Source: Streptomyces prasinopilosus | GTDB lineage: Bacteria > Actinomycetota > Actinomycetes > Streptomycetales > Streptomycetaceae | Direction: 5' to 3' | NCBI RefSeq assembly: GCF_001419695.1 | Contig: NZ_LIRG01000066.1 | Coordinates: 1 to 63,792, forward strand | DNA: 63,792 nucleotides | Notes under the pieces: model-generated | The model's input: only the letters and a program-made list of their open reading frames with translations | Told to the model about the DNA's origin: nothing | Database searches by the model: none | Made by a program: the position numbers and the translations under genes | In this document: piece after piece, positions 23,200 to 63,574 of the stretch | Numbering within the stretch: position 1 is the stretch's first letter | Layout of the letters: the number at the start of each line of letters is the position of its first letter

Positions 23200-23209
23200 A
23201 GAGACCTCC

Positions 23210-26200
23210 TCAGCTCGCGTTGAGTACCTGGATGAGCTCGCCCTGCGCGGTGCGGACTTCGGCACGGGCGATGTCGGTGATCTGCTGGTCGCCGACGTAC
23301 ACCGACACCTGAAGGTCGCCCAATTCGCCGCCGCCGCGGGCGAGGGCGTTGAACTGGGAGCCAGTCAGGACCGGCTCCGGCCGGCCGGTGCCGTTGTAGG
23401 CGAGGTTGAAGCCGGGCTGGAGCATGCCGCCCTGGTCGTACTTCCCGGGCTGGAAGCCGTACCAGTCGGTGTACAGGGACGACTTGTAGCCGCGGGCCCG
23501 GGAGCCGACGACGACACCGTCCCCGCCCCTCGATTCGACGTTGGTCTTGCCGAGGGTTCCGGAGGTGTGGCCGACGCCCGCGTTCGTGATGCCGATCTTG
23601 AATGCGGAGTTGCCGTTCTTCACCCAGCCGGGAGGGGCCTGCTTGCCGTGGAACGCCATCGTTGCCCAGCGCCGGTGCGGCTTCTGACCTCGGATGACGC
23701 TCTCAATGGCGCTCATGAACCCGCTGCAGTCCCAGGATGGGTTGCCGTTGCCTGCCCACTGGTAGGGCTTGCCGTGCTGGGTGCGCGCCCACTTCAGCGC
23801 GGCGGAGATGCGTGGCCCGCCGATGCCTCCGGCTCCCTTGTCGTCGGCCTTCTTCGAGTAGCCGAACAGGGCGTCGATGATCCTGTTGGGGATGCGGCGG
23901 ATCATCTTCCCGAAGCCGGTGTCCATGCCGGGGAAGTTCCGCAACAGCGGGTCGACGACGTTCTTCACGCCGGCCCTCGCGCTCGCTTCCAGGGTGTCGC
24001 CGAGCCAGGAAGCACCCTCCTTGATCTTGTTCCATGCGTCCGATCCGGCGCCCATGGCGGCCGAGGCAGTGCTCTTGATCCAGCCGAAGATGCCGCCGTC
24101 GGCGAACCGCTGCACCGGGTAGACGCCGCCACCCGAGTAGCGGAGGGAGGTGTCGGTCGGCGTGCGGGGGTTCCCGCCGAGCATCGGTGCGAGGGCTGCC
24201 TTGACGCCCTGCGCGCCATGGGATCGGGCGACCTTGTTGAAGTAGCCGACGAATCCACTACCGACGGCGCGGGTGAACTCGGGCCGCATGATGGCCTCGC
24301 CGCCCGACAGTTCAAGCTGCCCGCCGGTCGGAGACATGAACTTGTGGACGTCCCGGCCCGGCGTGTAGCCGGGCATGATGCCGCCGGACGCGAACGAGTA
24401 CTTCTCCAGCTTCGGCGCCCCGAACGCGCCAGCGACCTTGTTCCAGACGCCGACGATGCCCTTGTTGTAGACGGTGTCGACCACAAACTGGACGGGCTTC
24501 CGGGAAACCGACTTGACCCGGTCCCAAGCGGACTTGATCGAGTCGACTGCCGTGTTGAAGGCGCCCTTGAGACTGCGGACGATGTCCTTGAAGCGATCAA
24601 AGACGGGCCGAATGCCCTTCTCCCACGCCGTCTTGCCTGCAGAGACGATGCCGTCCCATGCGGGCTTGATGGCGTTCTTCCACAGCCAGGTGCCCCAGCG
24701 GCCGACCTCCTTCATCCCGTCCCAGATGAACTTGAAGACGGGCTTGAGGATCTTTTCCCACATCCATTTGGTGCCGGTCTGGATGCCGGACCAGGCCGGT
24801 TTGATGGCGTTCGTCCACAGCCACTTCGCCTTGTCGCCGATCCACTGGAAGGTCGGCTTGAAAGCCGAGTTCCACAGCCACAGGGCGAGCTTGGCAATCG
24901 CCTCGAAGGTAGGCTTCAGGGCGGTCTGCCACAGCCACTTGCCGATGAACGCAAGGAGTTTGAAGCCTGCGATGATCGGCGCCACCATGACGACCACGAT
25001 GATCGTGGCCAGGACTTTCGCGGCGGTGGCGATGAATCCGAAGACCGGTTTGATGATCGAATTCCACAGCCAGAGGACGACTGCGGCGACCTTCTGCCAG
25101 TAGGCGATCAGGAAGCCCACATAGGGCTTGATTATCGAGTTCCACAGCCACATGACGACCTGACCGAACCAGGCGAAGAAGGGCTTCAGTGCGTTGTTCC
25201 ACAGCCACATCGCACCGGTCTGGATCGCCGACCACACCGCCTGGACGCCTTCGCGGAACCAGTCGAAGCGGTTGTACGCCCACACCACGACGGCGATGAG
25301 CGCCACCACACCGATGACGATCAGCGTGATCGGGTTCGCTGCCACGGCCGCGTTGAACGCCCACAGGGCGATCGTCCACAGTTTCGTCGCCAGGATGATC
25401 CCGTAGATCGACAAGATGAGCCACGGCGCCTGCTCGGCAACGACAGCCACAAACTCAGCCAGGGCCCCGACGATCCGCAGGATCGGGCCGGAGAGCGGCG
25501 ACAGAGCCTGCGCAACGTTCATGAGCGCAGACCCAAGATTCCCGAACGTCTCCGCGAGGAGCGGGCCGTGCTCGGAGGAGTACGACAGGAACCGCTCGAA
25601 CTCCGGGGAGCCCTTCAGGTTGCTGCCCCAGTTCGCGAACCGGGCCGTGATCGTCTGCATCCGCGACGAGATGGAATCCATGTGCGGGAAGAAAGCCTGC
25701 ACGACGCCGGCCATGCCCTTGAAGACGTTCCCGAAGGCGACCCCAAGCCCGGTGATCGCGGGCTTCACCGAGCCCTCGAGGTCAGACTTGAACTCCTTCC
25801 ACCACGGCGACTTGAAGCCGCGCGACGCCCGGTCCTGCAGATCCGTGATGGCGTCCGCAGCCTCCAGCACGAACGGCGTCAGACCCGGCAGGCTGTTCTT
25901 CAGGCCCTCGAGCGCCCGGGTGAAGATGGGCATCACGGCGGGCTGCAATGCCCGCGACCAGGCACTGAAGGTGTCCTTCAGGCTGAGGAACGCGTTCAGT
26001 GTCTCCCGCGCGCTGGGCGTGAGTTTCGCCAGCTCAGCCTGGTACTTGGCCTGCGCGATGGCAGCCTGATCCACGCCCCCGGCCGCAGTGAGCGACGCGG
26101 AGGCAATCTGACGTTGTGCCGATGCGATCGAGTCCGCAGCCGACTGCTGCGCCTGCACAAGCTGCTCCTGGGCGCGGGCCACGGAACGGGCCCCGTCCTT

Positions 26201-28114: not shown

Positions 28115-28135
28115 CGGGAGCCCCCTCCCAGCGCC

Positions 28136-28971
28136 CTACTCGGCGCCCCCTTGAAGCAGCTGAAGCAGCGTGTTCGCCGACTTCTCGGTGAGCTTGGCCT
28201 TCTTCTTCCGCGGCCCCGCACCCGGCCGGCGCAGCGGCTCCGGCGGATCAGGCCGCTTGCTCTTCTTCTCGGTGTTGACGCAGATCAGCACCCATTCCAG
28301 GCGACGCACGGCGTCGTACAGGGCGGCGGTGAGCTGCTCCTGCTGGGACCAACGCCCCTTCTCCGGCTCGCCCGTGTCCGCCTGCGCCGACAGTTGCTCC
28401 GGTGTGAGCTCGTTGCGGAGGGCGGTCATGGTGTGTGACTCGGGCGGCAGGTGCTCGATGAGGACGCGCAGCCACCGCCACGACCGGCGCCCCGACAGCA
28501 CGTCGGCGATGTCGTAGTGCCGGTCGATGAGGTCGGCTTCTACCGCCTCCGGGTGGGCCTGCCAGATCGCGATCGTGCCGCGGACTTTCCCAGGGTCTCC
28601 CCTGCCCGCTCTCCGGCTTCGGTGACGAACTCCTGGAACTCGGTCGCAGTCGGATCCAACTCCTCGAAGAACTCGTAGTCGTCGGGGTGCAGGATCTTCT
28701 CGGCGAATTCGTAGATGAGGCCCTGGGTCAGCATCCGCTGCCAGGACACACGCCACGCCGCGGGCGGGACGACTCGCACTTCCTCGCCGCACAGTTCGGC
28801 GGTGACGTAGTGGCCCTCGGCTTCGATCTCCTGCGCGTCGGCGGCCGACACCTCGGGGTCCTCGGTGTCCGGCTCGACGTCCGGTTCCTCGCGGCGGGTG
28901 GTGGGGCGGGATGCTGCTCGGGCCGCGGTGCGCGGCTTCCTGCTCGTGCTGGTGGTTCGCGTGTTGGCCAC
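28136..28971 (-). CDS. Tail assembly chaperone, long form made by -1 frameshift (gpGT-like)
   Basis: The product is about 278 residues: 129 codons in the frame starting at 28971, then a -1 slip at 28585-28591 into the frame ending at 28136. The extension begins VRGTIAIWQAHPEAVEADLI and continues YDIADVLSGRRSWRWLRVLI, typical of actinophage gpT-type chaperones, and has a Lys-rich end. With the short form it chaperones the tape measure during tail assembly. The second frame has no good start of its own; an open-frame ATG-type start exists upstream but lies inside the first gene in shadow sequence. Confidence 0.82.
28540..28971 (-). CDS. Tail assembly chaperone, short form (gpG-like)
   Basis: The 143-residue protein has a Thr/Arg/Ala-rich N-terminus (MANTRTTSTSRKPRTAARAA), an acidic stretch, then a helical core (WQRMLTQGLIYEFAEKIL, DDYEFFEELDPTATEFQEFV). 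It starts at a GTG whose leader GGAGCCCGCGCC also precedes three genes near 43-44 kb. It is made in excess over the frameshifted form in phages of this type. Confidence 0.82.
   Translation of the reverse strand: MANTRTTSTSRKPRTAARAASRPTTRREEPDVEPDTEDPEVSAADAQEIEAEGHYVTAELCGEEVRVVPPAAWRVSWQRMLTQGLIYEFAEKILHPDDYEFFEELDPTATEFQEFVTEAGERAGETLGKSAARSRSGRPTRRR
28585..28591 (-). promoter_or_regulatory. Programmed -1 frameshift site GGGAAAG
   Basis: On the minus strand the heptamer G GGA AAG lies in the zero frame of the short chaperone (codons 128-129). It is the same slippery heptamer used by phage lambda for gpG/gpGT. A -1 slip converts the reading from LGKSAAR to LGKVRGT and enters the downstream chaperone frame. 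Confidence 0.82.
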
Positions 28972-29011
28972 GGCGCGGGCTCCTTATCTCCTGGCGCGGG
29001 CTGGGGGTAGA

Positions 29012-29070
29012 GGTGGACGGGCCGGGCCCGCGCCAACGGTGACACCAGTGGTGTCGACGGCCCGTCCACC
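29012..29070. terminator. Hairpin after the major tail protein gene
   Basis: GGTGGACGGGCC (29012-29023) pairs perfectly with GGCCCGTCCACC (29059-29070), with a second GACACCA/TGGTGTC stem inside the loop. It starts six bases after the major tail protein stop codon. It probably gives partial termination or 3'-end protection and so favours the abundant tube protein over downstream genes. Confidence 0.72.
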
Positions 29071-29075
29071 CGTCT

Positions 29076-29663
29076 TCAGGACCCGGTGTACGCCTCGGTT
29101 TCGGGCAGCCGGTCGAAGTGGTAGACCGTGTTGCCGACGCTGTCCGGGTAGGCGGTGATCGTCCACTCGTAGGCGATCGCCTCGTCCTGCTTGTTGGTCA
29201 CGTCGCTGCGCTCCGTGATCTCCCCCTCAGGCACGTAGAAACCGCGCTGGAAGGAGTCGCCGTCCAGGACGACGAACCACCAGGCGCGCCGGTCCGGCTT
29301 CGGGGAAGCGGTCTCCGCGTAAGTCGTCAGTCCGGCCGTCGGGGCCAGGTCCGCAGTGTCGAGGCGGTACTGCAGCGACTGCACCGTGGTCCGTGCCGTC
29401 TCCCACGCCGTCAGCGAGAACGTGCGCAGCGACGACGTGATCGTGGTGCGGATCGGCGCCGTGAACCCCCACGGGGTGAAGCTCTCGGAGTCCTCCTCGA
29501 AGCCCTGCACGAGACCGTCGTCGCTGATGGCACCGAGCGGTGCCCACGGCGCCAGCGGCTGGATCTCCGGGTCGCCGGGCGAGGTGGTACCGAGCGGCGC
29601 CACCCAGGCTCCGCCGTTCGCACCGATACCCATCAGGTCCGCTGCGCGGGTGATCTGAACCAT
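29076..29663 (-). CDS. Major tail (tube) protein
   Basis: The 195-residue protein has the usual major tail tube pattern: MVQITRAADLMGIGANGGAW, then LGAISDDGLVQGFEEDSESF and WGFTAPIRTTITSSL, and a C-terminal beta-rich half ending ITAYPDSVGNTVYHF. It polymerises into the tail tube around the tape measure. ATG at 29663 has GGAG six bases upstream; an earlier in-frame ATG at 29678 lacks such a site. It is followed at once by a strong hairpin. Confidence 0.85.
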   Translation of the reverse strand: MVQITRAADLMGIGANGGAWVAPLGTTSPGDPEIQPLAPWAPLGAISDDGLVQGFEEDSESFTPWGFTAPIRTTITSSLRTFSLTAWETARTTVQSLQYRLDTADLAPTAGLTTYAETASPKPDRRAWWFVVLDGDSFQRGFYVPEGEITERSDVTNKQDEAIAYEWTITAYPDSVGNTVYHFDRLPETEAYTGS

Positions 29664-29737
29664 GATGTCTCCAGACATGCTTGAAGCCCGCGCACGGGCG
29701 GGAACTGGAAAAGGCCTGGCGCGGGCCGAACAGCCGG

Positions 29738-33879: not shown

Positions 33880-34827
33880 TCAGGACGCGGCGGTGGCCGT
33901 CTGTACCACGGCGAACGGGGACCGGGTCGCCGAGTTGGTGTTGAGGCGGGTCGCCGGGTTGGCCGTGGCGAACGCCACCCGCATCACCACGCGCATGGCG
34001 ACGGAGTCCTGCTGCATCAGGTTGAGGACGACCTTGCCGTCGTCGTCGGAGATGACGCCCTCGGTGAACAGCTTGAAGCTGATGTCCTGGCGCACGCCGA
34101 CGATCGCCTTCGACCAGTCGCCCATGAGGAGCTCGGCCTCGGACATGTCCCAGGCGCCGTTGGTGAGCTCCGACATCGGGTAGCCGTACAGCGTGCCGCC
34201 CAGGCCGCCCTGCAGGTTCGGCTGGTAGATCGGCACACCCTGCTCGGACCGCATCGTGTTCAACTTCCACGTCAGGCCCGGCCGGCTGATGAAGCCGTTC
34301 ACGGCGAACCCGTCCGCGGCGACCTTGCCTGCAGCGTCGGCCACATCGACGGCGAAGTCGACGCCGGCCCCCGAGATGACCGCGTTGCCTGCGGCCACCG
34401 CCGACTGGTACACGGCGGCCGGCCAGGTGGACGGCTTGTCCAGGCCGAACAGTCCGGCCCCGTCGAGCTTGGCGCCGATGGCCTCGACGAGTCGGGGGCG
34501 GACCTCGTTCCAGATCGGCATCTGGGCGTCGTCGAGGTAGGCCTCCGGGATCGGGACGATCGCGGCGATCTCCTCGGCGACAAGGTCGACGTTCTTCCAG
34601 TCCTGCGACGTGGTCTGCTTCAGTCCGGTGTCGCCACCGACGAAGTACGCGAGCGGCAGCACGTCGAGCACGGGCTGGCGCTGCGTCTTGCTGGACATCG
34701 GCACCTGGCGGGCCCGCTGCAGAAGCGCCGATGCGCCCGGCAGGCCCTGGATGATCTCGACGGACACCGGCTCGGGGACGAGCGGGTCGTTGCTGGCGTC
34801 CCGGCTGATGAGCGAGTTGAAAGGCAC
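33880..34827 (-). CDS. Major capsid protein (HK97 fold)
   Basis: In the 315-residue protein the pattern MPFNSLISRDASNDPLVPE, then QPVLDVLPLAYFVGGDTGLK, VDLVAEEIAAIVPIPEAYLD and IWNEVRPRLVEAIGAKLD matches HK97-fold capsid proteins of actinophages. It has no long N-terminal delta domain; a separate scaffold gene lies upstream. GTG at 34827 follows AAGGAGA. It forms the icosahedral shell and is a possible substrate of the adjoining glycosyltransferases. Confidence 0.9.
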   Translation of the reverse strand: MPFNSLISRDASNDPLVPEPVSVEIIQGLPGASALLQRARQVPMSSKTQRQPVLDVLPLAYFVGGDTGLKQTTSQDWKNVDLVAEEIAAIVPIPEAYLDDAQMPIWNEVRPRLVEAIGAKLDGAGLFGLDKPSTWPAAVYQSAVAAGNAVISGAGVDFAVDVADAAGKVAADGFAVNGFISRPGLTWKLNTMRSEQGVPIYQPNLQGGLGGTLYGYPMSELTNGAWDMSEAELLMGDWSKAIVGVRQDISFKLFTEGVISDDDGKVVLNLMQQDSVAMRVVMRVAFATANPATRLNTNSATRSPFAVVQTATAAS

Positions 34828-34896
34828 GGGGTCTCCTTCCGGAAAAGCAGCGACCCCGGCCCCGTGCGGGTGATTCCGGTGCTGCGGTGAACGTGG

Positions 34897-35481
34897 TTAG
34901 CGGCCGGCTAGGCGCCGGATCCAGTCGTCCGGGCTGGCTGTGGCCGACCCGGACGCCGTTGCGGCGCCCGGTGTGAGGGCCTCGACGGGCCTCTGAGATG
35001 TCGGTGCGGTAGGCGCGGATGCCTTGAGGCGCTCGGCGAGGATCTCCGCACGCGCGTTGATCTCCTCGTCACTGCCGGAGCCGAGCAGGTCGATCAGGTC
35101 CGGCGGGATGTTGTGCGTGGCCGCCGCCATCAGGCGGGTGTTGGTGGCGCGCAGGTCGCCGAGCTGGCGCTCCGCCGCCTCCTTGGCGTCGAGGAGCTTC
35201 TGCTGCTCGGTCTTCTGCGACTCCTGCCACTGCTGATACTCGGTCAGCTGCGGTTCGGCCTCTCGGTACTTCGTGCGCCAGCTCGCCGACTCCCTGCGGA
35301 GCTTCTCGATCTCCTTCCGGGCCGCCTCGGGGTCCGCCCACGGGTCCGTGCCCTGGGACTGCTGGTTTGCCGAGGTGTCTTGCGTTCCGCCGCCGGACTG
35401 CACGTCCGGCTGCTGCGCGATGTCGGTGGTGCTGGCGTCAGACTGTCCTGCAGCCTGCGTGGTGTCGGCCGTGTCCTGCAC
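34897..35481 (-). CDS. Scaffolding protein
   Basis: The 194-residue protein is Gln/Ser/Asp-rich at the N-terminus, then has a charged coiled coil (ARKEIEKLRRESASWRTKYR; EAAERQLGDLRATNTRL) and a short C-terminal helix (PDDWIRRLAGR) of the type that docks to the capsid. It stands directly upstream of the capsid gene, the standard place. GTG start with GAGGGACC upstream. Confidence 0.85.
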   Translation of the reverse strand: MQDTADTTQAAGQSDASTTDIAQQPDVQSGGGTQDTSANQQSQGTDPWADPEAARKEIEKLRRESASWRTKYREAEPQLTEYQQWQESQKTEQQKLLDAKEAAERQLGDLRATNTRLMAAATHNIPPDLIDLLGSGSDEEINARAEILAERLKASAPTAPTSQRPVEALTPGAATASGSATASPDDWIRRLAGR

Positions 35482-35594
35482 GGTCCCTCCTCGTTCTGGG
35501 CATGAGAAAAGGCCGTGTCCAGCACGACCCCAAGGTCCCGCAGACGCGGGCGATATTCGGTTAGCTGACGCCGCCAGGACGCCAGAGCTTTAGA

Positions 35595-36371
35595 TCAGGG
35601 GCGATCGGGTGCCGTGTAGGCGGCCCTGCCCTCGGACTCCCACCAACGGCGGAACGCGTTGACGGCGTGCGTACCGCCGCGGCCACGCGTCGTCCGCAGC
35701 CAGTCGTCATAAAGCTGTTCGGCGACACCGATGAACGGCTCGTCGTTCGTGAACGCAGGCCACGCCTGGCACCCGCAGTGATCGTGGTAGCGATTGCCGC
35801 CCTGCCGCGGATCGCCCGCCGTCTTCGCCGACTTGTACACCGGCCCCCGCGAGGCGAGCATTGCGCACCAAGCGCACGGATCAGCGTCCGTCACCCGTGC
35901 CCATCCGGTCGCCTGCTCATCGACCTCGATCGACCGCTGCATGACCTGCCGGCCGCCCTCTAAAGCCAGGTACTGGGTGCTGCCGACCAGGCGGACGGCG
36001 GCGGCATCCATGGCTTGTTGAGGTGTCTTGCCCGCGGCGATGGCCTTCTTGAACTCGACCGGGCCAGTCACATCGAGGGCACTCTCCAGCCGCTTCGCCA
36101 AGAGCGGCAAAGGACCCTCTGGGGTGAAACCGTCCTCGTTGACGCCAGCCTCGCGCCTGGCATTCATGTACGAGGACTCGGCGAGAGCCGCGGACTGTTC
36201 GCGAGCCTGCCGCACCAACGGCGTCAGAGCGGCACGGACGGCCGGCCAGGACGCGTCCACCTTCGCCGGGTTCATCAGTTCCCGCCATACCTGCAGTACC
36301 TGCTGGGCGAGGCGGGCAGCCGCCAGAGCCTGGATGCGGCGATACCGCTGAGGAGCCTCCGGGCTCGCCAT
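35595..36371 (-). CDS. MuF-like capsid morphogenesis protein
   Basis: This 258-residue protein follows the portal gene with a one-base overlap. The N-terminal part is helical. The C-terminal domain has the DPCAWCAMLASRGPVY and YHDHCGCQAWPAF motifs, the Cys/His cluster of MuF-type minor head proteins. It is thought to ride inside the head with the portal. The 114-base gap downstream, before the scaffold gene, holds no gene. Confidence 0.82.
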   Translation of the reverse strand: MASPEAPQRYRRIQALAAARLAQQVLQVWRELMNPAKVDASWPAVRAALTPLVRQAREQSAALAESSYMNARREAGVNEDGFTPEGPLPLLAKRLESALDVTGPVEFKKAIAAGKTPQQAMDAAAVRLVGSTQYLALEGGRQVMQRSIEVDEQATGWARVTDADPCAWCAMLASRGPVYKSAKTAGDPRQGGNRYHDHCGCQAWPAFTNDEPFIGVAEQLYDDWLRTTRGRGGTHAVNAFRRWWESEGRAAYTAPDRP

Positions 36372-37765
36372 CAGAGCACCACGTCCGCCACCGGCTCCGC
36401 AGCAGGGGCGGGCTCCAGCTGGCTCATCTGCTTTTCGATGATGCCGTTCAGGCGACTCAGCGAATCACCCTGCTCGGCCGTCGTCTTCCAGCGTTCGACA
36501 TCGGTCTGCGTGACACCGGGGATCTTCTCCCACAGCTCCTGCGGAGGAACCCCGAGCATCGTGACGAGCTTGCCCAGCGCGTCGACGGTCTGCGCCAGCG
36601 ACCGCGCCGACGTGTCCCGCCACACGACCTGGGCTTGGATGTCCTCCCAAGCCTTCTGATCGCCCGCCGCCAGGCCAGCCAGGCGCAGGGCCTGCTCCCA
36701 GCCCTCGCCGAACAGGGACTCGCGTTCGTCGATCTTCCGGTCGAGACCATCGCGGGCTGCCGCGAGGGCTTCCGCAGACAGGTTCACCATCTGCCCGAGG
36801 AGGTGGTACGGCGGCACCTGCGACAGGGTCGACATGTGCCGGATCGTCGCCTCACGACTCTCGAGGTAGCCCTTGAGGTCGGTCTGGCCGAACTCGCCGA
36901 ACTTCGTGTCCGCATCCTCGGCAACGAACAGACCGTCCACGCGGGAGCGGAACGGCTCGATCGGGTTGCCGTCGTCGTCCTGCGGCGGCGCCATACCGGT
37001 GACCCAGCGCTGCCGGAATGCCGCGTACTGCTGCGCCATCAGCAGGTTGAACGTGGTCATGTTCAACTGGTCCTGGGCGTCGATCAGCGGCTCCACCTCG
37101 CCGATCACGCCGTCGCCGTCGAGATCGTCCGTGTTGACGAAGCGGACCACCGGGCACACGCCCAGACCGTGATGCATCACGCCGTTCTCGTCCAGCTTTA
37201 GACCGGATCCGTCGACGTTACCGACCAGCGTGTAGCGGCCCTGGTCGTCATACAAGCGCACCACGCGGCGACGGCCCTTCGCCGTGTTCTCCACGCGGTC
37301 CTCGATCGCATAGATCGGCCACTCGTCATTGACCGGATCCGCATACAGTGCGGTCAGGCGCCGCGGCGAGAACGGGGTGATCACCGGTACGGGCTTGCCC
37401 GGCATCACCACCACATAGGAGGCCCCGTAGGTGAGCGCAGCCCGGTGCACACCGTGCTGCCGCGCGTCCAGCCGGTTCGCCTGCCACACCCGCCACGGCG
37501 AAGCGTTGTCGTCCGCACCCTTCGGCCGGTAGCCATCGACGTACATGTTCTGCGAGACGACCGTGACCACCAGCGGCAGGATCTTCACCTTCGCCCGCTC
37601 GATCAGCCACCGGTACTCGGCACGCGCCCCAGCGGGAACGTAGACGCTCGAATGATCGCCCGCCATGTAGTCGGCAATCCGCTGCAGCCTCGGCTGCTCC
37701 ACCTCACGTAGCTTCAGCAGTCGGCGCGCCGTCGAAACCGCCTCTTCTTCGCCCATCAACGGCAT
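36371..37765 (-). CDS. Portal protein (SPP1 gp6-like)
   Basis: The 464-residue protein forms the dodecameric vertex through which DNA passes. Recognisable segments are LRRLLKLREVEQPRL-like N-terminal helices, VVSQNMYVDGYRPKG, a beta section KPVPVITPFSPRRLTALYAD, and the crown/stem region QDQLNMTTFNLLMAQQYAAF and SQVPPYHLLGQMVNLSAEAL. ATG at 37765 has GGAGGGGG upstream. Length and order are normal. Confidence 0.9.
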   Translation of the reverse strand: MPLMGEEEAVSTARRLLKLREVEQPRLQRIADYMAGDHSSVYVPAGARAEYRWLIERAKVKILPLVVTVVSQNMYVDGYRPKGADDNASPWRVWQANRLDARQHGVHRAALTYGASYVVVMPGKPVPVITPFSPRRLTALYADPVNDEWPIYAIEDRVENTAKGRRRVVRLYDDQGRYTLVGNVDGSGLKLDENGVMHHGLGVCPVVRFVNTDDLDGDGVIGEVEPLIDAQDQLNMTTFNLLMAQQYAAFRQRWVTGMAPPQDDDGNPIEPFRSRVDGLFVAEDADTKFGEFGQTDLKGYLESREATIRHMSTLSQVPPYHLLGQMVNLSAEALAAARDGLDRKIDERESLFGEGWEQALRLAGLAAGDQKAWEDIQAQVVWRDTSARSLAQTVDALGKLVTMLGVPPQELWEKIPGVTQTDVERWKTTAEQGDSLSRLNGIIEKQMSQLEPAPAAEPVADVVL

Positions 37766-37784
37766 GACGCGCCCCCTCCCCCGC

Positions 37785-39434
37785 TCACGCGAATCCATGG
37801 ACGCGACCAGTGCGCTTCCGCTTCTTCTGCCTCTTCGACCAGTCCGGCGACGCCAACAGTGCTCGCCGCGCCATATCCGCCAGCTGCATCGCCGCGAAGG
37901 CGTCCACCTTCTTCGGGGACTCCCGCGACTCCTTGCCGAACGACACGCCCCACTTGTTCGGCCTGCGCCGGGCGTTCGCAACATGCCGCTTCAGGACCGG
38001 ATCGCCGGTGTGCAGGATCTTCTGGTCGATGATGGCCTGCACCAGCGCCTCGGTCGCCTTCGTCAGCTCCTGCTGGTGGCCACGCATGTCGTAGCCGATC
38101 AGCGACCTCGCGGACGCCTTCACCAGTAGTTCGTCGCGGTACGTCTCGCCCCACTCGTCGATGTACGACTCCCACAGCTTGACGTCCGCGAAGAACGCCC
38201 GGACCTGGTAGCGGCCGAACGCGTGCGCCACGAGATCCGACACATGCTTGCGGTCGACCTCCCAGTTCTTCCCCAGGGGTCCTTCCGGCCGCTCCCAGAT
38301 ACCCAGAGGCTGCACCAGGCGGTCCGAGAGCCGCAGCGCAATCAACGCAGTCGCGTCGTCGGTCTTGCCGCCGTCGAAGCCGAGCGTGATCTCGTCGCCG
38401 TCCTGCAGACGAAGCTCCGAAGCGCACTTGGCCCACTCCCCCGGGTCCAGCAGAGCGTCCTCCGCAGCAACCGGCTGGTTCAGCCAGTACCGTCGCGAAT
38501 CCGACGGCGACGACTGCGGATCCCAGATCTCGGCGATGATGCCGTCCAGGTCCATCCACGCCGCGGCCGGCCCGTAAGCCTCCTTGAGGCCAGCGAGCAA
38601 GGCATCACGGTCGGACAGGTCCACGCCGTCAACGGCCTGGCGGTGGTCGAACAGCAAGCCGGCCGCGTCCGCGCCCCGTACCCGGCCTTCTCTGATGGCC
38701 TTGTAGTAGGTGTGGGTCGCCTCCGCGACCGAGTCCTGACCCGGCTCGTACATCGTCGACGTCTCAAGGCACCACGGCTCGGCTTCCTTGCGTTTACGCA
38801 GGTTGCGTCGCACCGTGCCGTGCATGCGCCGCAGCTCCGGCAGCACATACAGATGGGTCTCGTCGAAGACCGCAAAGGTCTCCTTGCCGCCGTCCTTCGC
38901 CGCGGATGACGCCGTCGACGGGGTGATCTCGCCCCGCTGATGATGCAGAATGATCCGGCTCGAGGACTGCGCCGACTTGCCGATGTCGATGCCCGGGAAG
39001 TCGGCGCCGTGGTGCTCGATGAGGTACTCGAGCATCGTCGACACGTTGTCGTAAGTGTTGCCCGACTGGCCCTCTTCCGTGGCCAGGCAGCGGATGAACG
39101 GCGACTTCACCGGCCTCCCGACCGGCTCCCCGTTCGCGTCCCAGCCGTCGAACCGCACCGGGAACAAGGCTTCGGAGCAGACCAGCATCCCGGCGATCTC
39201 AGACTTCGCGCGGCCCTTCGCCCGCGACAGGAACGCCCGCCGGTAGACCCGCCGGCCCGTCTCCGGGTCGATGCGGTAGGCCTTGACGATGAACGCGTAG
39301 AACTCATCGTCCAGTTCGATCGGCTCGCCGACAACGTCGCCAGGGCCGTGGCACAGGTACTCCTCGATGTGCTCCACGATGTGGTGCCCGAGAGAAGGGA
39401 ACTCGCCGTCGTACTGGGGACCGCGCCACGGCAT
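37785..39434 (-). CDS. Terminase large subunit
   Basis: The 549-residue motor packages DNA and cuts it. The ATPase domain has a divergent Walker A (LSRAKGRAKSE) and Walker B FAVFDETHLYVL. The nuclease domain has the first acidic motif ITLGFDGGKTDDATAL, then AFFADVKLWESY and a C-terminal KKVDAFAAMQLA. ATG at 39434. It lies nine bases downstream of the small subunit and 20 upstream of the portal gene. Confidence 0.92.
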   Translation of the reverse strand: MPWRGPQYDGEFPSLGHHIVEHIEEYLCHGPGDVVGEPIELDDEFYAFIVKAYRIDPETGRRVYRRAFLSRAKGRAKSEIAGMLVCSEALFPVRFDGWDANGEPVGRPVKSPFIRCLATEEGQSGNTYDNVSTMLEYLIEHHGADFPGIDIGKSAQSSSRIILHHQRGEITPSTASSAAKDGGKETFAVFDETHLYVLPELRRMHGTVRRNLRKRKEAEPWCLETSTMYEPGQDSVAEATHTYYKAIREGRVRGADAAGLLFDHRQAVDGVDLSDRDALLAGLKEAYGPAAAWMDLDGIIAEIWDPQSSPSDSRRYWLNQPVAAEDALLDPGEWAKCASELRLQDGDEITLGFDGGKTDDATALIALRLSDRLVQPLGIWERPEGPLGKNWEVDRKHVSDLVAHAFGRYQVRAFFADVKLWESYIDEWGETYRDELLVKASARSLIGYDMRGHQQELTKATEALVQAIIDQKILHTGDPVLKRHVANARRRPNKWGVSFGKESRESPKKVDAFAAMQLADMARRALLASPDWSKRQKKRKRTGRVHGFA

Positions 39435-39442
39435 GGCACCCC

Positions 39443-39901
39443 CTAGCCGGCATCCTCACTGACGATCCGAAGGTTCTTCCGCCGGTCCGACGTCGACCGT
39501 GGGGTCTCCACTTGGGCTGGCTTGTCTGCCGGGGTCTCGATCTTCAGCTTGAGCCGCATCCGGTCCTCCGGAGTGGCCCCGTACTTCGCGGCCCGTAGCC
39601 GGACCTCGGAAGCGAACTCCCAGCGCCCCTTGGTCCACATGACGTGGTGCAGCAGGGCCGTGTCGAGGAGGAAGTCCCAATCGGTGTCGATGAAGACCTG
39701 AGCCTGCGCCGACCGCCGCCACGTCTCCCACCACTGCACCGTCCGTGGATGCCACGACTCCTGGTCCGGCAGAACTCCCTCCGGCAATTCGGGCCCGCGG
39801 ACTTCGCCGTCGTCCTCGACACGGTTCAGCTCCCCCTCCCGGGCCTTTGAGTCCCGGGCGCGCGACCGCGTAGCCTTCGGCGCCATGCCGCGACCAGCCA
39901 T
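39443..39901 (-). CDS. Terminase small subunit-like protein
   Basis: This 152-residue protein has a basic N-terminus (ATRSRARDSKAREGEL) and a helical core with PRTVQWWETWRRSAQAQVFI and LLDTALLHHVMWTKGRWEFA, then KYGATPEDRMRLKLKIE. This is the familiar actinophage small terminase pattern that recognises the packaging site. ATG at 39901 is chosen because GAGGGG lies upstream; GTG at 39910 and ATG at 39886 are alternatives. Confidence 0.75.
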   Translation of the reverse strand: MAGRGMAPKATRSRARDSKAREGELNRVEDDGEVRGPELPEGVLPDQESWHPRTVQWWETWRRSAQAQVFIDTDWDFLLDTALLHHVMWTKGRWEFASEVRLRAAKYGATPEDRMRLKLKIETPADKPAQVETPRSTSDRRKNLRIVSEDAG

Positions 39902-39914
39902 GAGAGGCACCCCC

Positions 39915-57728: not shown

Positions 57729-57796
57729 GGGCCAGGTCTCCGTTTCAGATTTGCGGTGGTTTGCCGGGTGGACAGGTGGGGGTTTGCCCCGGTCTG

Positions 57797-57908
57797 CACC
57801 CCGGACAGGGGGTGGTCGACGGGTGGACGCGACCCGGGTCGCGTCCACCTGCCGTCCGGGTGACAGACCGGGATGAAAAGGGTCTTGTCCGGGGGCCTGT
57901 CCGGGGTG
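57797..57908. repeat. Nested inverted repeats downstream of the translocase gene
   Basis: The outer arms CACCCCGGACAGG (57797-57809) and CCTGTCCGGGGTG (57896-57908) are a perfect 13-bp inverted repeat, 86 bases apart. Between them lies a perfect 28-bp palindrome (57822-57849) with GACCCGGGTC at its centre. A further CCGGTCTG (57789-57796) is answered by CAGACCGG (57864-57871). The palindrome alone could be a terminator, but the ordered set is more than termination needs. Streptomyces TraB proteins bind short GACCCGG-type repeats in clt loci, so a transfer site is a reasonable hypothesis. Confidence 0.55.
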
Positions 57909-57928
57909 AACGGGCGAGTAAGCCCAGG

Positions 57929-60160
57929 TCAGGCGCCTTCGAGGAGGTCGAGCGCGTCCTCGATGTCGGCCCGCTTGTAGCCGTTCACGCGATTCGGCCG
58001 ACCCGGGATCGTGATCTTCACGGTGCCGCCCGCTCCAGCGGCACGAAGCAGCTCGCTCAGGCGCTCCTCGGTCATGCCGCCGCCGATGATCTCGGCCATC
58101 TCATCCAGTTGGGCGACGTCCCGCTCGAGCTCGTCCATCGCTTTCAGTGCCCCGCGGCAGGCATCCATCTGCATGCGCTGCTCCGGCGTGTGGCTCAGGA
58201 TGTGCCGGCCCGGCACGCCATCCCGCTTCGGTCCTCCCGCCGCCGAAGACAGACCGGTCGCGTTGAGGAGGTGCTGCTCGATCGGGTCCTCCCACTGCCC
58301 GGCCAGACGGCCCGACTTCTCGCGGATCCTGGCGGCCTTCTCCAGCAGCATGGTGATCTCGCCGCGCTCGTCCTCGTCCAGGTCGAAGGAGCGGGCCAGG
58401 TCGGTGACTCCGGCGAACGGGTTCACCAGCCAGCCGAAGCCGGGCCGCGGCGGGTCGAACTTGGAGGCGTCCCGGCCCGCGCTGGCCTGACCGCCCCCAA
58501 GGATGGCGTTGGACTGGGTGGCGTTCTCAACGCGCATCGCCCATCGGGCACCGCAGTTCATGGCGAGCGCCTGCGGGATGACATCGGCCTCCGGGTACTG
58601 GGTGATCAGCACCATGAGGATGCCTGCACCCGCAGCGACCGCAGACAGCTCGATCAGCGCTTCCAGGATCTCGTCACGCAGCGGCTTCCCGGGCCGCGTG
58701 TAGGTGGCCAGCTCGTCGATGACCAGCAGCTCGATGCCGCCGATCTGCTCAATCACGGGCGCGACCAGCTTGGACTTGCCGAGCGCGCCCAGGTCCCTCT
58801 CCCGCCGGTCCTTGTCGGCGAGCAGCGCCTTGAGCAGGGCCAGCAGCCGCTCGGGGTTCGGCTTGAAGTACGTCGACGCGACGCCCGCCTTGGAGTAGGG
58901 GTCCCACTCGCCATTGTTCTTCCCGGCAACGATCCGCAAGTTGATCCGCGGGTCGAAGGACGTGCCGACGACCAGGTTGGAGGCGCCGACGCCCTTACCG
59001 GATCGGGTCATGCCGGCGATGACGTAAGACTGGTTGTTGATGGCCAGGCGGATGGTGATGCCGCGCTTGTTCCAGGCGACGGGCACGCCGTCCTTGAAGG
59101 CGTCGAGCTGGGTCGGCGCCTTCAGCAGCGGGGACGGCCGGGTCTCTTCGAATGGGTCGCGGTCCGTCATCCAGAAGGAGGTGCGTACCTCAGTGCCTGC
59201 CTTCTCGATGTCGACCATGGACACGTCGCGGCCGAGTGCGCCAGCCAGCTTGGGCAGCTTCTTCTTCAGTTCGGCGACGGTGGTGCGGGGCGGCAGGTCG
59301 AAGACAACGGTGGTGCTGCCGTCCTTCTCGCGCTGCGGCACGGCGAGGATCTGGATCTGCTCGTTGGGCTTGACCTCGCCGATGTTGCGGAGCGCCTGCT
59401 CGAGTTCTTCAACCGTGAGCGCCGGGGGCGGCGGGGCGTTGAACTCCCGCATCCCAGGCTGCGACTCCAGCTTCGTCAGGTCGACCGGGGCGGCCAGCAT
59501 CTGCGTCTCCGTGGTCGGGGCAGGTACAGGCTGGCCGACGTCGAAAGGGCGCGACACCAGATACCAGCCGTAGCCGGCTGCGGTGCCAAGCGCGGCCAGC
59601 AGCATGGGCTGCCCGCTGGCGGCCTGCTCTATCGCGCCGCCCAGGACGGACATGGCGCCCAGTCCGCCACCGGCGACGATCGCGGCTCGGCTGGCCTTCT
59701 TGCTGGTGCGGGCGGCGTTGATCTCCCGGTCGGTCGGGGGCAGGAGCGGGGTGGCCTGCAGCGCGGCGAGCTTGGACTCCTCTGCGGCGACGCGCCCGCC
59801 GAGGCTGGCGAGGGTGCCGGCGCTGACGTCTTCGCCGGCCTCGGAGCGTGCCTTGGCGTGAGCGAAGCGGCCGTGGGCTTCCGCGGCGATCCGCTGCTGC
59901 TGGATCAGCTTGTTGTCGTAGCGGCCCTGCTTGCGGTCGGTGGCGTACTGGATGGCGGTGACGGGGTCGATGTCGGCGCCGGCCAGCCAGTGCTTGGTGC
60001 GGGCGGTGGCGTGGCCGTACTGCTTCTTGGCGGTGGTCTTGATGCGGTCGCTACGGGACGGCCCCTCGGGCTCGGCGGGCTTGGTCAGTTCCTCGTCGGA
60101 CCACTCGAACGGCGGCTCGTAGGGCTCGTAGGGCGGCTGGTGCTCGATCTCGGTGGCCAC
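57929..60160 (-). CDS. FtsK/SpoIIIE-type DNA translocase (TraB/TraSA-like)
   Basis: In the 743-residue protein, the N-terminal 150 residues are charged and helical. Two membrane helices follow (about 159-180 and 185-203), then an alpha-domain-like region and a RecA-type motor with Walker A GMTRSGKG (383-390) and Walker B LLVIDELA (478-485). Sequence after the motor includes LITQYPEADVIPQALAMNCG and RWAMRVENATQSNAILGG, typical of Streptomyces plasmid and AICE transfer proteins. These move double-stranded DNA between hyphae as a single-protein conjugation machine. The C-terminus (MTEERLSELLRAAGAG) may hold a small DNA-recognition domain. GTG start at 60160. A phage role such as DNA segregation is possible. 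Confidence 0.85.
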   Translation of the reverse strand: MATEIEHQPPYEPYEPPFEWSDEELTKPAEPEGPSRSDRIKTTAKKQYGHATARTKHWLAGADIDPVTAIQYATDRKQGRYDNKLIQQQRIAAEAHGRFAHAKARSEAGEDVSAGTLASLGGRVAAEESKLAALQATPLLPPTDREINAARTSKKASRAAIVAGGGLGAMSVLGGAIEQAASGQPMLLAALGTAAGYGWYLVSRPFDVGQPVPAPTTETQMLAAPVDLTKLESQPGMREFNAPPPPALTVEELEQALRNIGEVKPNEQIQILAVPQREKDGSTTVVFDLPPRTTVAELKKKLPKLAGALGRDVSMVDIEKAGTEVRTSFWMTDRDPFEETRPSPLLKAPTQLDAFKDGVPVAWNKRGITIRLAINNQSYVIAGMTRSGKGVGASNLVVGTSFDPRINLRIVAGKNNGEWDPYSKAGVASTYFKPNPERLLALLKALLADKDRRERDLGALGKSKLVAPVIEQIGGIELLVIDELATYTRPGKPLRDEILEALIELSAVAAGAGILMVLITQYPEADVIPQALAMNCGARWAMRVENATQSNAILGGGQASAGRDASKFDPPRPGFGWLVNPFAGVTDLARSFDLDEDERGEITMLLEKAARIREKSGRLAGQWEDPIEQHLLNATGLSSAAGGPKRDGVPGRHILSHTPEQRMQMDACRGALKAMDELERDVAQLDEMAEIIGGGMTEERLSELLRAAGAGGTVKITIPGRPNRVNGYKRADIEDALDLLEGA

Positions 60161-60223
60161 AGGGCCTGTCCTTCCAGGAGTCGGGGGCGGGGCCCCGATG
60201 TGGGGCCCCGCACGAGGGGTGGG

Positions 60224-60685
60224 TCAGAGGCCGCCGAGGATGTTGCTGAGCGAGGCGACGCCGGTGTCGGTGAGCTGATCGGCCATGCCGCCGATCACGG
60301 TTCCGGCGAGCGCGACACCGAGAATCGTGACGACGACCGCGTCACCGACCTTCAAGTGACCGCCCTTGACCCGGAAGAAGACGACGAGGCCGAGGATCGC
60401 GATGGTGGCAACACCGGTCCCGATGGCCGCTCCGGACGCCTGGGTCTGGATGTTCTGCGGGTAGCCGGCGGGCATCTGCTGCGGGTTGGTGAGTGGGGCG
60501 CCGACACCGTTGGGGGTGAGGTCGCGGCCGATGCCGTCGGCGGCGCCCGGCTGGGTGTCGGTGCGGGCGACGGCGAGAACGGTCGCCTCGTGCTCCGGGC
60601 TCGCGGCGGCGGTCGCCGTGGCGCCTCCGAGGAGGGCGACGGTGGCGGTGGTCGAGACGGCGATGCGGCGAAGAGTGGCGTTCAT
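60224..60685 (-). CDS. Exported small membrane protein, spread/transfer-like
   Basis: The 153-residue protein has a Sec-type signal (MNATLRRIAVSTTATVALLG, cleavage likely near AAASPEHEA), an exported 45-residue segment, and two membrane helices (AIGTGVATIAILGLVVFF; VGDAVVVTILGVALAGTVIG). It sits between the TraB-like and SpdB-like genes, the position occupied by Spd-type membrane proteins in Streptomyces conjugative elements. No specific family is certain. Confidence 0.68.
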   Translation of the reverse strand: MNATLRRIAVSTTATVALLGGATATAAASPEHEATVLAVARTDTQPGAADGIGRDLTPNGVGAPLTNPQQMPAGYPQNIQTQASGAAIGTGVATIAILGLVVFFRVKGGHLKVGDAVVVTILGVALAGTVIGGMADQLTDTGVASLSNILGGL

Positions 60686-60708
60686 TTCGGGTCTCCTGAC
60701 GGGGTGGG

Positions 60709-62049
60709 TTAGGCGTTGGATGTGGGGTTGTTCTTCACGTAGTCGCGGAGGCGGACGGCGTACTCGTTGGAGCCGCCGCCGATCACTTCGCGGACCTTGC
60801 GGGCGGAGAGCTGGTCGACGTCTCCGAGGGCTTCGGCGAGCTTGCGAACCTTCTCGATGTGGGCCGGCTCAAGAGGCTTCTCGGGGGTCTTGGCGGAGGT
60901 GCGGCCAGATGCCTGCTTCCCTTTACGCCCAAGGGCTCCAGGCCCTTCGGAGGTGGTCCGGGAGCGGGCCCGTGACCCTCCCCCCGCGGGCCCTCCAGGG
61001 CCGCCTTCTGTGGTCGCTCCAGACGGCCCGTCGTCGCCTCCGTTGGCACCGAACACGTCGGCGAGCCAGAGGTCGACGGCGACGCTTTCGGGGCTGCGTT
61101 CGTAGTCCCGCATCACCTCTGCGATGGCCTCACGCGCAGCCTCGCGGGAGGCGAGCGATTCGGCCGTGACCGACAGCGGCAGACCGTGCTTCGTCTCCCA
61201 TGCCTGCACCCACGCAGCCTCGCGACTGATGGCCCCCGTGGGGTGGGCGGCGATGATCCGACGGAACTCCTTGAACTCCTCCTCGAAGAGATCCTCACGG
61301 AGCTTGTCCTCGGCCTGCTCGGTCCGCTTCCGCTCCGCGTCGGCCTTCGCCTTCTCCCGGGCGACGCGTCGGTCCTTCGCGCGCTGCTTCAGGTCCCGGC
61401 CGTCCTCCGCGGCCTTCGACTCGAGGAACTGACGGACCTCCGCCAGCAGCGGGCCGATGACTGACGTGGCAGCGAGGGCGCAGCCGGCGACTGTGCCGTA
61501 CTGGGTGACGCCGTGTGCGAAGTTGATGTAGCCGGCGAGCGACGCGAGCGTGGCAGTCAGCAGCCAGAACGGCCAGCGGGGCAGGCCCTTACGGTGCGCC
61601 CACCGGGTGCCCATGACGCCCACCCAGGCAAGCAGTTCGAGGAAGAACGGGATGGGGGCGAGCGTCCAGGCCGGGCCGGGGTTCTTGTCGTCCTTGTGGT
61701 GCAGGCCGAGGAAGTAGGAGATCTGGGCGGGGAGGGCGGCGAGCAGGCCGAGCGTCATGACGACGTTGACGAGGATCTTGAAGGTGGTGCCGTCGTCGTC
61801 GCGCTGCTCGCGTCGCTTCGCCTTGCGGACGGCCTTGTCGTCCTTCGCGGTCTCGGCGACGGCGGCGAGCTGGTTGCGCAGCTTGGTCTGCCTGACCTGC
61901 TCGGCGAGCTTGTCCGTCTCGGTCTTCGCCGCGTTGGCCTCGGCCTGCTGGGCGGCCGTCTGTGCTTCGGCGGCGAGCTTCGCGGCTTCGGCGCGGGCCT
62001 TGGCGGCGTCGGCTTCACGCTCCTCCCAGGAACGGTATCCGCTGCTCAT
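60709..62049 (-). CDS. SpdB-like/DUF2637-like membrane protein
   Basis: The 446-residue protein has an N-terminal coiled coil (residues about 8-85, AAKARAEAAKLAAEAQTAAQ), then four membrane helices (VNVVMTLGLLAALPAQISYF; PIPFFLELLAWVGVMG; FWLLTATLASLAGYINFAHG; VAGCALAATSVIGPLLAEV). A charged cytoplasmic region and a Gly/Pro-rich, low-complexity linker follow, then a C-terminal helical domain (EKVRKLAEALGDVDQLSARK) like a DNA-binding winged helix. SpdB-type proteins help plasmid spread through septa between hyphal compartments. It is the first gene of the three-gene transfer-like module. Confidence 0.75.
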   Translation of the reverse strand: MSSGYRSWEEREADAAKARAEAAKLAAEAQTAAQQAEANAAKTETDKLAEQVRQTKLRNQLAAVAETAKDDKAVRKAKRREQRDDDGTTFKILVNVVMTLGLLAALPAQISYFLGLHHKDDKNPGPAWTLAPIPFFLELLAWVGVMGTRWAHRKGLPRWPFWLLTATLASLAGYINFAHGVTQYGTVAGCALAATSVIGPLLAEVRQFLESKAAEDGRDLKQRAKDRRVAREKAKADAERKRTEQAEDKLREDLFEEEFKEFRRIIAAHPTGAISREAAWVQAWETKHGLPLSVTAESLASREAAREAIAEVMRDYERSPESVAVDLWLADVFGANGGDDGPSGATTEGGPGGPAGGGSRARSRTTSEGPGALGRKGKQASGRTSAKTPEKPLEPAHIEKVRKLAEALGDVDQLSARKVREVIGGGSNEYAVRLRDYVKNNPTSNA

Positions 62050-62154
62050 CGGGTGTCCTTCCAGGACTTAGTGGGGGTGAACGATGGGGTGGTGCTGGGC
62101 CGGTTCTCCTCACCACCCGGTCGAGCCGGGCGGATCGGACAGCCGGTCAGCGGG

Positions 62155-62328: not shown

Positions 62329-62466
62329 GACGGGCTCCTCTCGGGTCAGGTGGATGGCGGGTGGTGCAGTGCCCCGGTCTGCCTTTGCGGCTACGCCCGT
62401 GGTGGCCGGGCCGGGGCTGCCACCGCACGGAACGGGGGTGGACCGTGCGACGGCGGTATCGGAGGG

Positions 62467-62690: not shown

Positions 62691-63071
62691 TTAGCGCTGT
62701 ACGACAGGGCGACGAATGTCGCGGTGGATGACGGTGACGGTGTGGCCGCGGCGCCGCAGTCGGCGGGCGAGCTGGTCGGCGACGACGACCGACCGGTGCC
62801 GGCCCCCGGCGCAGCCGGAGCCGATGACGATCGGCTTGTCGCCCGGACCCTCGGCGTAGGCCTGCACCTGCCGGGCGGTGGCCTTCAGGAGCGGCCGAAT
62901 GCCTGCGGTGTGGAGCACGGCCCGCTGCACGAGCCGGTCGCGGCCGGTGAGCTGCCGCATCCGGGGGTCGACGTGCGGGTCACGGAACGCGCGCCGCAGG
63001 TCCAGCACGATGTCCGCCTCAGGAGCGCTGGCATGCAGGAAACCGAAGCTGACGATCTCGACGGCGGCCAT
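62691..63071 (-). CDS. RapZ C-terminal-domain protein
   Basis: This 126-residue protein corresponds to the C-terminal domain of RapZ (YvcJ) without its N-terminal kinase-like part: IVSFGFLHASAPEADIVLDL, RRAFRDPHVDPRMRQLTGRD, then IVIGSGCAGGRHRSVVVADQ and VIHRDIRRPVVQR. In enterobacteria this domain binds regulatory RNA; in Streptomyces the function of full-length RapZ is not settled. Stand-alone versions occur in actinophages and elements. All typical conserved residues (GCAGGRHRS, HRD) are kept. ATG at 63071 shares one base with the upstream stop. Confidence 0.82.
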   Translation of the reverse strand: MAAVEIVSFGFLHASAPEADIVLDLRRAFRDPHVDPRMRQLTGRDRLVQRAVLHTAGIRPLLKATARQVQAYAEGPGDKPIVIGSGCAGGRHRSVVVADQLARRLRRRGHTVTVIHRDIRRPVVQR

Positions 63072-63466
63072 CAGGCGGCGGCCGGGTAGTGGATGTGGAG
63101 TTCGGTGCAGCCGGTCACCCAGTCGAGGTGGATCGGGCACGTCTCGCGCTCGGCCAGCGGGACGGCGTAGACGGTCTCCCGGTGCAGGGCGCGGCACTTC
63201 TCCGCGTGCTCCTGCGCCCACTCACTGGCCTGGGCGTCGGAGAAGCGGCTGCCGTCGTTGAAGCCGACGGACGCGTTCCGCCGCCACTCCTGGTTGCAGT
63301 AGGCGCCGCAGCCCCCGCACCGGGCAGTGCTTACGTTCGGCTCGGTGTCGTCGAGGTAGAGGCTGTCGTGGCTGACGTCGACGGTGGCGCCGCCGACGGT
63401 CAGGTAGCGGGCGATGACGCCCTCGGGCCAGGCGGTCGACTGCGCGGGTTGGGTGGAAGAAGGCAT
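63071..63466 (-). CDS. Hypothetical protein with Cys cluster
   Basis: The 131-residue protein has a beta-rich N-terminus (VIARYLTVGGATVDVSHDSL) and a Cys group RCGGCGAYCNQEW, then SEWAQEHAEKCRALHRE. It may bind zinc. Coupled to the RapZ-domain gene by a one-base overlap. Family not recognised. Confidence 0.62.
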   Translation of the reverse strand: MPSSTQPAQSTAWPEGVIARYLTVGGATVDVSHDSLYLDDTEPNVSTARCGGCGAYCNQEWRRNASVGFNDGSRFSDAQASEWAQEHAEKCRALHRETVYAVPLAERETCPIHLDWVTGCTELHIHYPAAA

Positions 63467-63562: not shown

Positions 63563-63574
63563 CGGTCTTGGGGT

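Follow-up and report, generated by a model that had tools for sequence, protein, structure and literature searches.

A prophage in the uppP gene of Streptomyces prasinopilosus with a predicted plasmid-type conjugation module

Introduction

Septa and multigenomic hyphae represent a problem for phages of filamentous hosts. The locus described here raises the question of whether an integrated phage of Streptomyces prasinopilosus possesses, as part of its own genome, a plasmid-type system for the conjugative transfer of double-stranded DNA (dsDNA). The stretch analyzed, hereafter referred to as the window, represents an entire contig (C682; NZ_LIRG01000066.1) of 63,792 bp from a genome assembly of 1,058 contigs. 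A preliminary description had located three open reading frames on its minus strand (62049-57929), which is also that of terminase, capsid, and tail genes, and had proposed a prophage with a Streptomyces conjugation-type module. The former was confirmed and the latter largely upheld, by SpdB2 and TraB homology, a gene order like that of the S. venezuelae plasmid pSVH1, and relatives bounded by attachment (att) sites.

In our interpretation, a temperate tailed-phage prophage in the 3' end of uppP probably carries a dsDNA conjugation system, composed of an SpdB2-like protein, a TraB-type translocase, and a clt-like locus, as a regular module (estimated probability approximately 0.68). Movement of phage DNA by the module, be it from hypha to hypha or inside them, is considered equally probable, based on homology, gene order, selection, and the repeat array. 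The anatomy of the element is firm to the point of near certainty: its parts, their order and homology, the array, a single att-bounded element, its recurrence, and purifying selection were all read from the sequence.

The three-gene module and its resemblance to pSVH1

The module begins with an SpdB2 homologue of 446 aa (60709..62049, minus strand), followed by a small signal-peptide membrane protein of 153 aa (60224..60685, minus strand) and a TraB-type dsDNA translocase of 743 aa (57929..60160, minus strand). All three reading frames showed a gene-like GC-by-codon-position pattern and have homologues. The corresponding region of pSVH1 runs from GntR through two small genes, SpdB2, and another small gene to TraB, with SpdB2 and TraB being homologous to the proteins of the window. 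The 12 annotated features of pSVH1, a plasmid of 12.7 kb, include rep but no virion gene, whereas the module of the window is set in a prophage.

The family alignment of the 446-aa protein (nine rows) matched pSVH1 SpdB2 in an hhalign comparison (99.4%, E 1.4e-21) and, furthermore, a DUF2637 protein of plasmid pZL1 (98%, E 2.5e-13). Neither this protein nor the 153-aa protein obtained a significant Pfam, PHROGs, or NCBIfam family; the identification as Spd was therefore deduced from the profile comparison, which matched SpdB2 where these collections gave none. The Pfam cut-off for DUF2637 was not reached by the 446-aa protein, and pSVH1 SpdB2 also lacked a hit, while the domain was found in proteins of pZL1 and S. 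jietaisiensis. Of the original designation as an SpdB-like four-helix protein, only the SpdB likeness stood, since two hydrophobic segments were detected at the hydropathy cut-off applied (three in pSVH1 SpdB2). Judging from the profiles, homology to SpdB2, and not the helix count, is the firm point on this protein.

For the 153-aa protein, a signal peptide (judged by eye) and two hydrophobic segments agreed with its earlier description as a signal-peptide membrane protein. Its topology resembles that of VirB2/TrbC pilins, and only part of the family has this protein: tblastn matches were obtained in 6 of 16 compared records, and the gap between spd and traB in genome G174 is too short for the gene. 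The ratio of nonsynonymous to synonymous substitution rates (dN/dS) of 0.416-0.781 (three pairs) indicated weaker purifying selection than on traB (0.145-0.378, five pairs). The corresponding small gene of pSVH1 differs in encoding a product of 108 aa without a hydrophobic segment.

The translocase groups with plasmid TraB proteins

The 743-aa protein comprises an FtsK-like RecA motor with Walker A (GMTRSGKG, residues 383-390) and Walker B (LLVIDELA, 478-485) motifs. The best solved structures in a Foldseek search were the conjugation ATPase TcpA (3.1e-11) and, next, an FtsK motor (4.2e-11), and the family profile matched pSVH1 TraB with 99.75% (hhalign, E 2.9e-27). A single N-terminal hydrophobic segment (159-177) was detected in place of the two membrane helices previously described, a second match (501-519) falling in the motor; pSVH1 TraB has none at the same cut-off. 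In the AlphaFold model, which is poor at 163-243 and has a whole-model mean pLDDT (predicted local confidence) of 62, the C-terminal block reached values of 80-90. We read residues 659-740 of this model as a putative winged helix (three helices, two strands, and a helix), representing a candidate reader of the clt-like repeats.

In a tree of 45 rows, including four chromosomal FtsKs and the FtsKs of Mycobacterium phage WXIN, Bacillus phage Andromeda, and a Staphylococcus phage, the TraB of the window and 14 close relatives formed a single clade (support 100/100). This clade was joined first by the TraBs of plasmids pZL1, NZ_CP108486 (Kitasatospora), and NZ_CP108328 (S. jietaisiensis) (93/99), followed by the loci L107 and L014 (91/96), and then by pSVH1 and others (89/96), none of these three joins being starred in the tree. 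The chromosomal FtsKs (100/99) and the three phage FtsKs fell outside the TraB groups, so that the placement which the preliminary description had named as fatal, firmly among FtsK proteins, was not observed. Members of the NCBIfam family plasmid_TraB (NF041214) represented a separate branch, apart from pSVH1 TraB as well, and the protein is accordingly filed, on sequence grounds, as TraB-type but not as NF041214. In a plasmid search, 54 records were matched by this TraB, 49 of them from Streptomyces. Among 50,697 phage records, only two matches were obtained at 1e-5, both in Staphylococcus phages (31.5% identity over 11%), and no Streptomyces phage record matched up to E 10.

A repeat array follows traB

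Directly after the traB stop lies a non-coding intergenic stretch of 200 nt (57729..57928, minus strand) that had gone unmentioned in the preliminary description. It holds four copies of CCCGGAC, three in the direction of traB (57899-57905, 57887-57893, and 57854-57860, minus strand) and one inverted (57800-57806, plus strand), around a perfect 28-bp palindrome (GGTGGACGCGACCCGGGTCGCGTCCACC, 57822..57849, no strand assigned). In pSVH1, the GACCCGGA transfer repeats (clt) occupy the same place after traB with near-identical letters, and they ranked first, just after traB, in an unsupervised 8-mer count. A simple 8-mer count in the window ranked other k-mers best and did not pick out the array. 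The motif was recognized by reading 330 nt after traB across relatives; its count in the window is therefore after the fact, and the loci not used to find it provide the fair test.

Four copies per 220 nt were reached in none of 3157 other sections of the contig, in which CCCGGAC as such is not over-represented (30 found versus 34.5 expected). After traB, 15 of 20 loci, the window included, showed a CCCGGA[CA] count that was equalled nowhere else in the element or locus concerned, namely 9 of the 12 loci used to see the motif and 6 of the 8 genome loci not used. Excluded from the 20 were CP042280.1 (with a traB disrupted in its record and 0 copies at the presumed stop), the non-phage loci of G014 (1 copy) and G070 (2 copies; 0 of 751 sections as high), six records identical over the fetched stretch to counted ones (L132, L133, L134, L136, L138, and L142), the distant L143, and G361, which is 100% identical to G200 in terminase, portal, and tape measure. 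The element of G321, fetched later, has three copies (0 of 3967 other sections as high). In a motif-free 7-mer test, 12 of 17 elements ranked in their own top 5%, the array of the window being in the top 2% (20 of 1053 sections as high) and G321 lying outside the top 5% (353 of 1323).

Other lineages were found to carry other repeats after traB: CTGTACA six times on contig C105 of the same genome (2 of 627 sections as high), CCCTGCC five times in G157 (5 of 990), and GGTGTCC nine times in the Kitasatospora plasmid NZ_CP108486 (0 of 343). A constant position combined with lineage-specific letters is the pattern predicted by plasmid-specific TraB recognition. According to PMC4170104 and PMC12857230, clt consists of 8-bp repeats. 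Repeats of about this size are present in the array, and their clt function is predicted from sequence; the array is the most diagnostic part of the module.

The module and the virion genes form one element

Whether one or two elements are present was decided from relatives and from a second contig. In G174, a chromosome in one contig, an exact 143-bp repeat of the uppP 3' end occurs in two copies 53,504 bp apart, enclosing integrase, DnaB, Spd, TraB, terminase, portal, capsid, tape measure, and endolysin. The 47-bp repeat of G321 stems from the 3' end of a tRNA-Val; its copies, 62.5 kb apart, enclose matches for tape measure, capsid, portal, and terminase, as well as TraB, Spd, DnaB, and an integrase-like match. 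Both elements have DnaB on one side of the module and terminase on the other, and no att repeat was found between late genes and module in either, which speaks against the att site (attR) that the preliminary description had considered possible at this point. Furthermore, the metagenomic record G202, whose ends overlap in 242 of 243 bases, closes to a circle of 89,630 bp with the module inside.

In the window, host DNA with uppP (4768..5643, plus strand; 83% to the same-place gene in G174) fills the left side, and the prophage extends from the attL core (TGGTTCATGAAGTTCATCAC, 5512..5531, plus strand) to the right end. The reverse complement of this core represents attR, the first 20 nt of contig C98 (19,172 bp), so that the extension to attR proposed earlier was achieved beyond the module. 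Behind the core, C98 encodes a uppP-type integrase (26-1420, minus strand), which shares 88% identity with the integrase of G204, an element likewise inserted in uppP, and then early genes and DnaB in the order seen in relatives. This copy was missed by an 18-base pattern, because the contig end holds only 17 of those bases, and was found via an integrase search instead. No exact end overlap of at least 12 bases exists between C98 and C682, and a search with one G204 gene for the missing middle returned nothing useful; from the spacing in G201 and G204, the gap is estimated at about 10 kb. Core, integrase, and DnaB thus define the element as C98, the gap of ~10 kb, and the window from 63792 to 5512.

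Recurrence and exchange

The preliminary description had supposed the combination to be uncommon; it proved not to be a one-off. Among 392 species genomes sampled across the genus, 7 encode TraBs of the same clade, separated from all others by a score gap (at least 585 versus at most 352 bits): G000, G174, G321, and G361 carry them in phages, G014 and G070 without recognized phage genes, and G386 completes the seven. In IMG/VR, 11 contigs encode TraBs at 62-100% identity, one apparently being the window's own genome; the other ten all have head or tail genes, and terminase matches to the window occur in seven of them. By PHROGs, G200 has a portal and a tape measure, and G206 a terminase and a capsid; in G204, a tail protein but no terminase was identified. 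A search of genome contigs yielded 15 loci (13 from Streptomyces, one from Kitasatospora aureofaciens, and one from an unnamed actinobacterium), six being the same as earlier ones; no phage context was found within 10 kb for L129, L135, and L140.

In 9 of 11 measured elements, terminase follows traB in the same orientation at a distance of 3.3-20.8 kb. The two exceptions are the circular G202 and G203, which looks permuted and has no detectable end overlap. In every phage element checked for spd, by tblastn or position, the gene accompanied traB. The terminases are not all of one PHROG (phrog_9 for the window, 2 for G174 and G206, and 38 for CP042280.1), indicating that the module was kept while head genes changed. 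A prophage in G157 (contig C72) has an Spd 65% identical over 99% to that of the window, a TraB 40% identical, and structural genes up to 78% identical, from which it follows that spd and traB also recombine and were exchanged separately. On the tree, where L014 and L107 lie in phages and L011 and L013 show no recognized phage genes, three changes of state were counted over 25 of 33 rows (20 phage and 5 not; 8 unknown rows left out), a number compatible with one capture by phages or with several.

Two further observations were made in the same genome. Contig C105 contains a second TraB/Spd phage (traB stop at 28540, minus strand; Spd near 31572, minus strand; terminase at 10522, plus strand), the TraB of which is 41% identical to the first. 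Contig C89 encodes a canonical NF041214 TraB in two overlapping frames (2409-4362, minus strand), which points to a frameshift or a misassembly.

Alternative explanations

Four alternatives were considered, the odds of which overlap with those of the best explanation and do not add up to one. The best-surviving one, a narrower form of the preferred interpretation, holds that the module acts only inside the host mycelium, spreading an excised or newly injected phage genome through the septa of one colony. It would account for the constant company of spd and traB, and SpdB2 of pSVH1 is tied to intramycelial spreading in PMC4170104. However, TraB of Streptomyces plasmids also directs transfer to a recipient according to the same text, and this restriction is considered rather unlikely.

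A phage FtsK serving segregation, dimer resolution, or packaging instead of intercellular transfer had been named as the alternative in the preliminary description. Phages of other hosts have FtsK-like proteins, the best PHROGs family of the translocase is named 'FtsK/SpoIIIE-like', and Streptomyces phage Mischief19, which was left out of the tree, encodes an FtsK-like protein with no Spd-like gene annotated beside it. Set against this are the position among TraBs and apart from the three phage FtsKs, on which a plain phage FtsK was rejected, the near absence of matches among phage records, and the adjoining SpdB2 homologue, pSVH1-like order, and array resembling TraB recognition sequences, so that little chance is left to this reading. 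Similarly improbable is the view that the repeats after traB represent a transcription terminator or operator in a phage without clt. The palindrome could form a hairpin and the repeats do lie downstream of a gene, but a terminator scan of 57000-63792 placed neither of its two sites in the array, and the direct CCCGGAC copies, the lineage-specific motifs, and the pSVH1 GACCCGGA copies at the same place are at odds with it.

A conjugative plasmid or actinomycete integrative and conjugative element (AICE) beside an unrelated prophage, or a decaying passenger module, is very improbable: the window alone shows no attR and the AICE-like G014 has a related TraB, but the att-bounded G174 and G321 prophages and C98 with its attR and integrase led to the rejection of two adjacent elements, the circular G202 agrees with this, and purifying selection on traB and recurrence beside different terminases contradict decay.

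Several findings weigh against the conjugative phage interpretation itself. The Walker A motif ends in GKG instead of GKS/T, as it also does in 4 of 6 NF041214 TraBs, and the protein scored 22.6 bits against the NF041214 cut-off of 800 and 14.7 against the Pfam FtsK_SpoIIIE cut-off of 24. The tree contains long or gappy rows, namely those of pIJ101 Tra, pSVH1, and the phage FtsKs, and the clade members of G014 and G070 lack recognized phage genes. The array was not seen in 5 of the 20 loci (G201, G204, G206, L140, and L141), with G201 showing only enrichment of the shorter CGGAC (12 of 4306 sections as high) and G204 a weak enrichment (88 of 3952); the 7-mer test showed nothing in 5 of 17 elements (G201, G204, CP042280.1, G014, and pZL1). 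An IS605-type TnpB gene (50284-51570, plus strand; Pfam) stands between late genes and module. The C98 integrase, without a Pfam match at E 0.1, owes its name to 57% identity with its counterpart in G174. Finally, GntR+UTRA regulators lie upstream of the module on the opposite strand in the phages G206, G207, and G208, and likewise in pSVH1, and none adjoins the module in the window; the ~10 kb between C98 and C682 are absent from the assembly, and a regulator, if any, would map to this missing stretch.

Comparison with known elements

Streptomyces plasmid-phages that conjugate as episomes and form infective particles are described, with pFP4 cited, in PMC4170104, and the transfer of pZL12 requires a tra gene and two neighbors according to PMC3583192. 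Conjugating plasmid-phages (pZL12 and pFP4) are thus already in print, as the preliminary description had supposed for phage-plasmids in general. In contrast to the integrated element of the window with its TraB/SpdB2 type, pZL12 is an episome with ParAB. No FtsK domain was found in its Tra3-like gp018 or the neighbors gp019-020 within the first 50 of 90 kb, and the homologous translocase gene expected of a pZL12-type element was not seen, no Streptomyces phage record being matched by this TraB up to E 10. The pZL12-like pSLE1 has ParAB and two integrases (PMC4487206), the latter resembling the two recombinase genes of the prophage studied here.

AICEs of the pSAM2 and SLP1 type share recombinase integration, an FtsK-like Tra, and Spd with the element. 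Searches for them, according to PMC3218068, define elements by Int, Rep, and Tra; the element of the window differs from such a set without virion genes in having head, tail, and lysis genes. A closer counterpart is CP042280.1, deposited as the unannotated 'plasmid unnamed1' of Streptomyces sp. WAC08241 (92.6 kb, circular), with TraB at 61% and Spd at 51% identity and matches for terminase, tape measure, and recombinase; its traB is apparently split by a frame change in the record. By its gene content, it is a phage or phage-plasmid. By titles and abstract openings, no integrated prophage with TraB, SpdB2, and clt was found in the open literature, subscription papers lying outside the search. 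The novelty lies in the integration of the element, in its pSVH1-type set combined with a clt-like array, and in the family of such elements.

Further features of the prophage

The genes read from the element (terminase, portal, capsid, tape measure, lysis, and integrase) and its att sites are those of a tailed-phage prophage, with particles being predicted only. Assigned by PHROGs, the late genes lie on the minus strand downstream of the module: holin (17624-17995), endolysin (18020-19414), tail genes including a tail protein (20971..29678) with tape measure (23210-28114) and major tail (29076-29678), and head and packaging genes (33880..39910) with major capsid (33880-34827), protease (35595-36371), portal (36371-37984), large terminase (37785-39434), and a small-terminase-like gene (39443-39910), the best PHROG of which bears the name minor tail.

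One recombinase gene is located near each end of the prophage, a second tyrosine recombinase (12143..13324, minus strand) standing opposite the C98 integrase. The only match of the TnpB among compared records was one of 29% in G202, at another place in that genome. Upstream of the module, a protein with a RapZ C-terminal domain is encoded (62691..63221, minus strand; PF22740, 8.7e-29); RapZ-type proteins are also encoded near the TraB module of pZL1 (13896-14279 and 18511-18903), where the genes so annotated occur downstream of traB. The early region on C98 encodes a homologue of the DNA polymerase III beta clamp DnaN (7303-8814, plus strand; PF00712, 3.3e-25; 78% match in G201), for which replication takeover or duplication of a drug target is possible, and two C5 cytosine methyltransferases (15411-16376 and 17966-19021, plus strand), possibly with an anti-restriction role.

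Proposed mode of action and implications

According to the model proposed, the prophage would excise via the uppP integrase, and the circle would be replicated with the phage-encoded DnaB. After a GntR-type repressor, as present upstream in three relatives, is lifted, TraB hexamers would use the C-terminal winged helix to bind to the CCCGGAC repeats and would pump the phage genome, as circular dsDNA, into a neighboring hypha, the SpdB2-like protein aiding passage across septa within the mycelium. The transferred DNA would then reintegrate, and virion production may provide a parallel route. TraB binding, pumping, DNA transfer, and the formation of virions are inferred from the sequence.

More tentatively, and with somewhat less than even confidence, we propose that a recurring family of integrated phages adopted dsDNA conjugation of the plasmid type, the TraB/clt code differing from lineage to lineage. 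Such phages might colonize the mycelium and mate between colonies without lysis, virions, or receptors, and phages of different code, such as CCCGGAC and CTGTACA in this genome, might coexist without cross-mobilizing. This might explain why such elements were encountered in integrated form, as a deposited plasmid, and as a circle from a metagenome, whereas none turned up in the phage records searched. With some twenty natural variants, the post-traB arrays would represent a directly testable address code for TraB specificity. If the interpretation is true, a phage with a plasmid transfer system gains a second, virion-free route, the boundaries between AICE, plasmid, and prophage would blur, and antibiotic producers would harbor a new candidate agent of chromosome mobilization.

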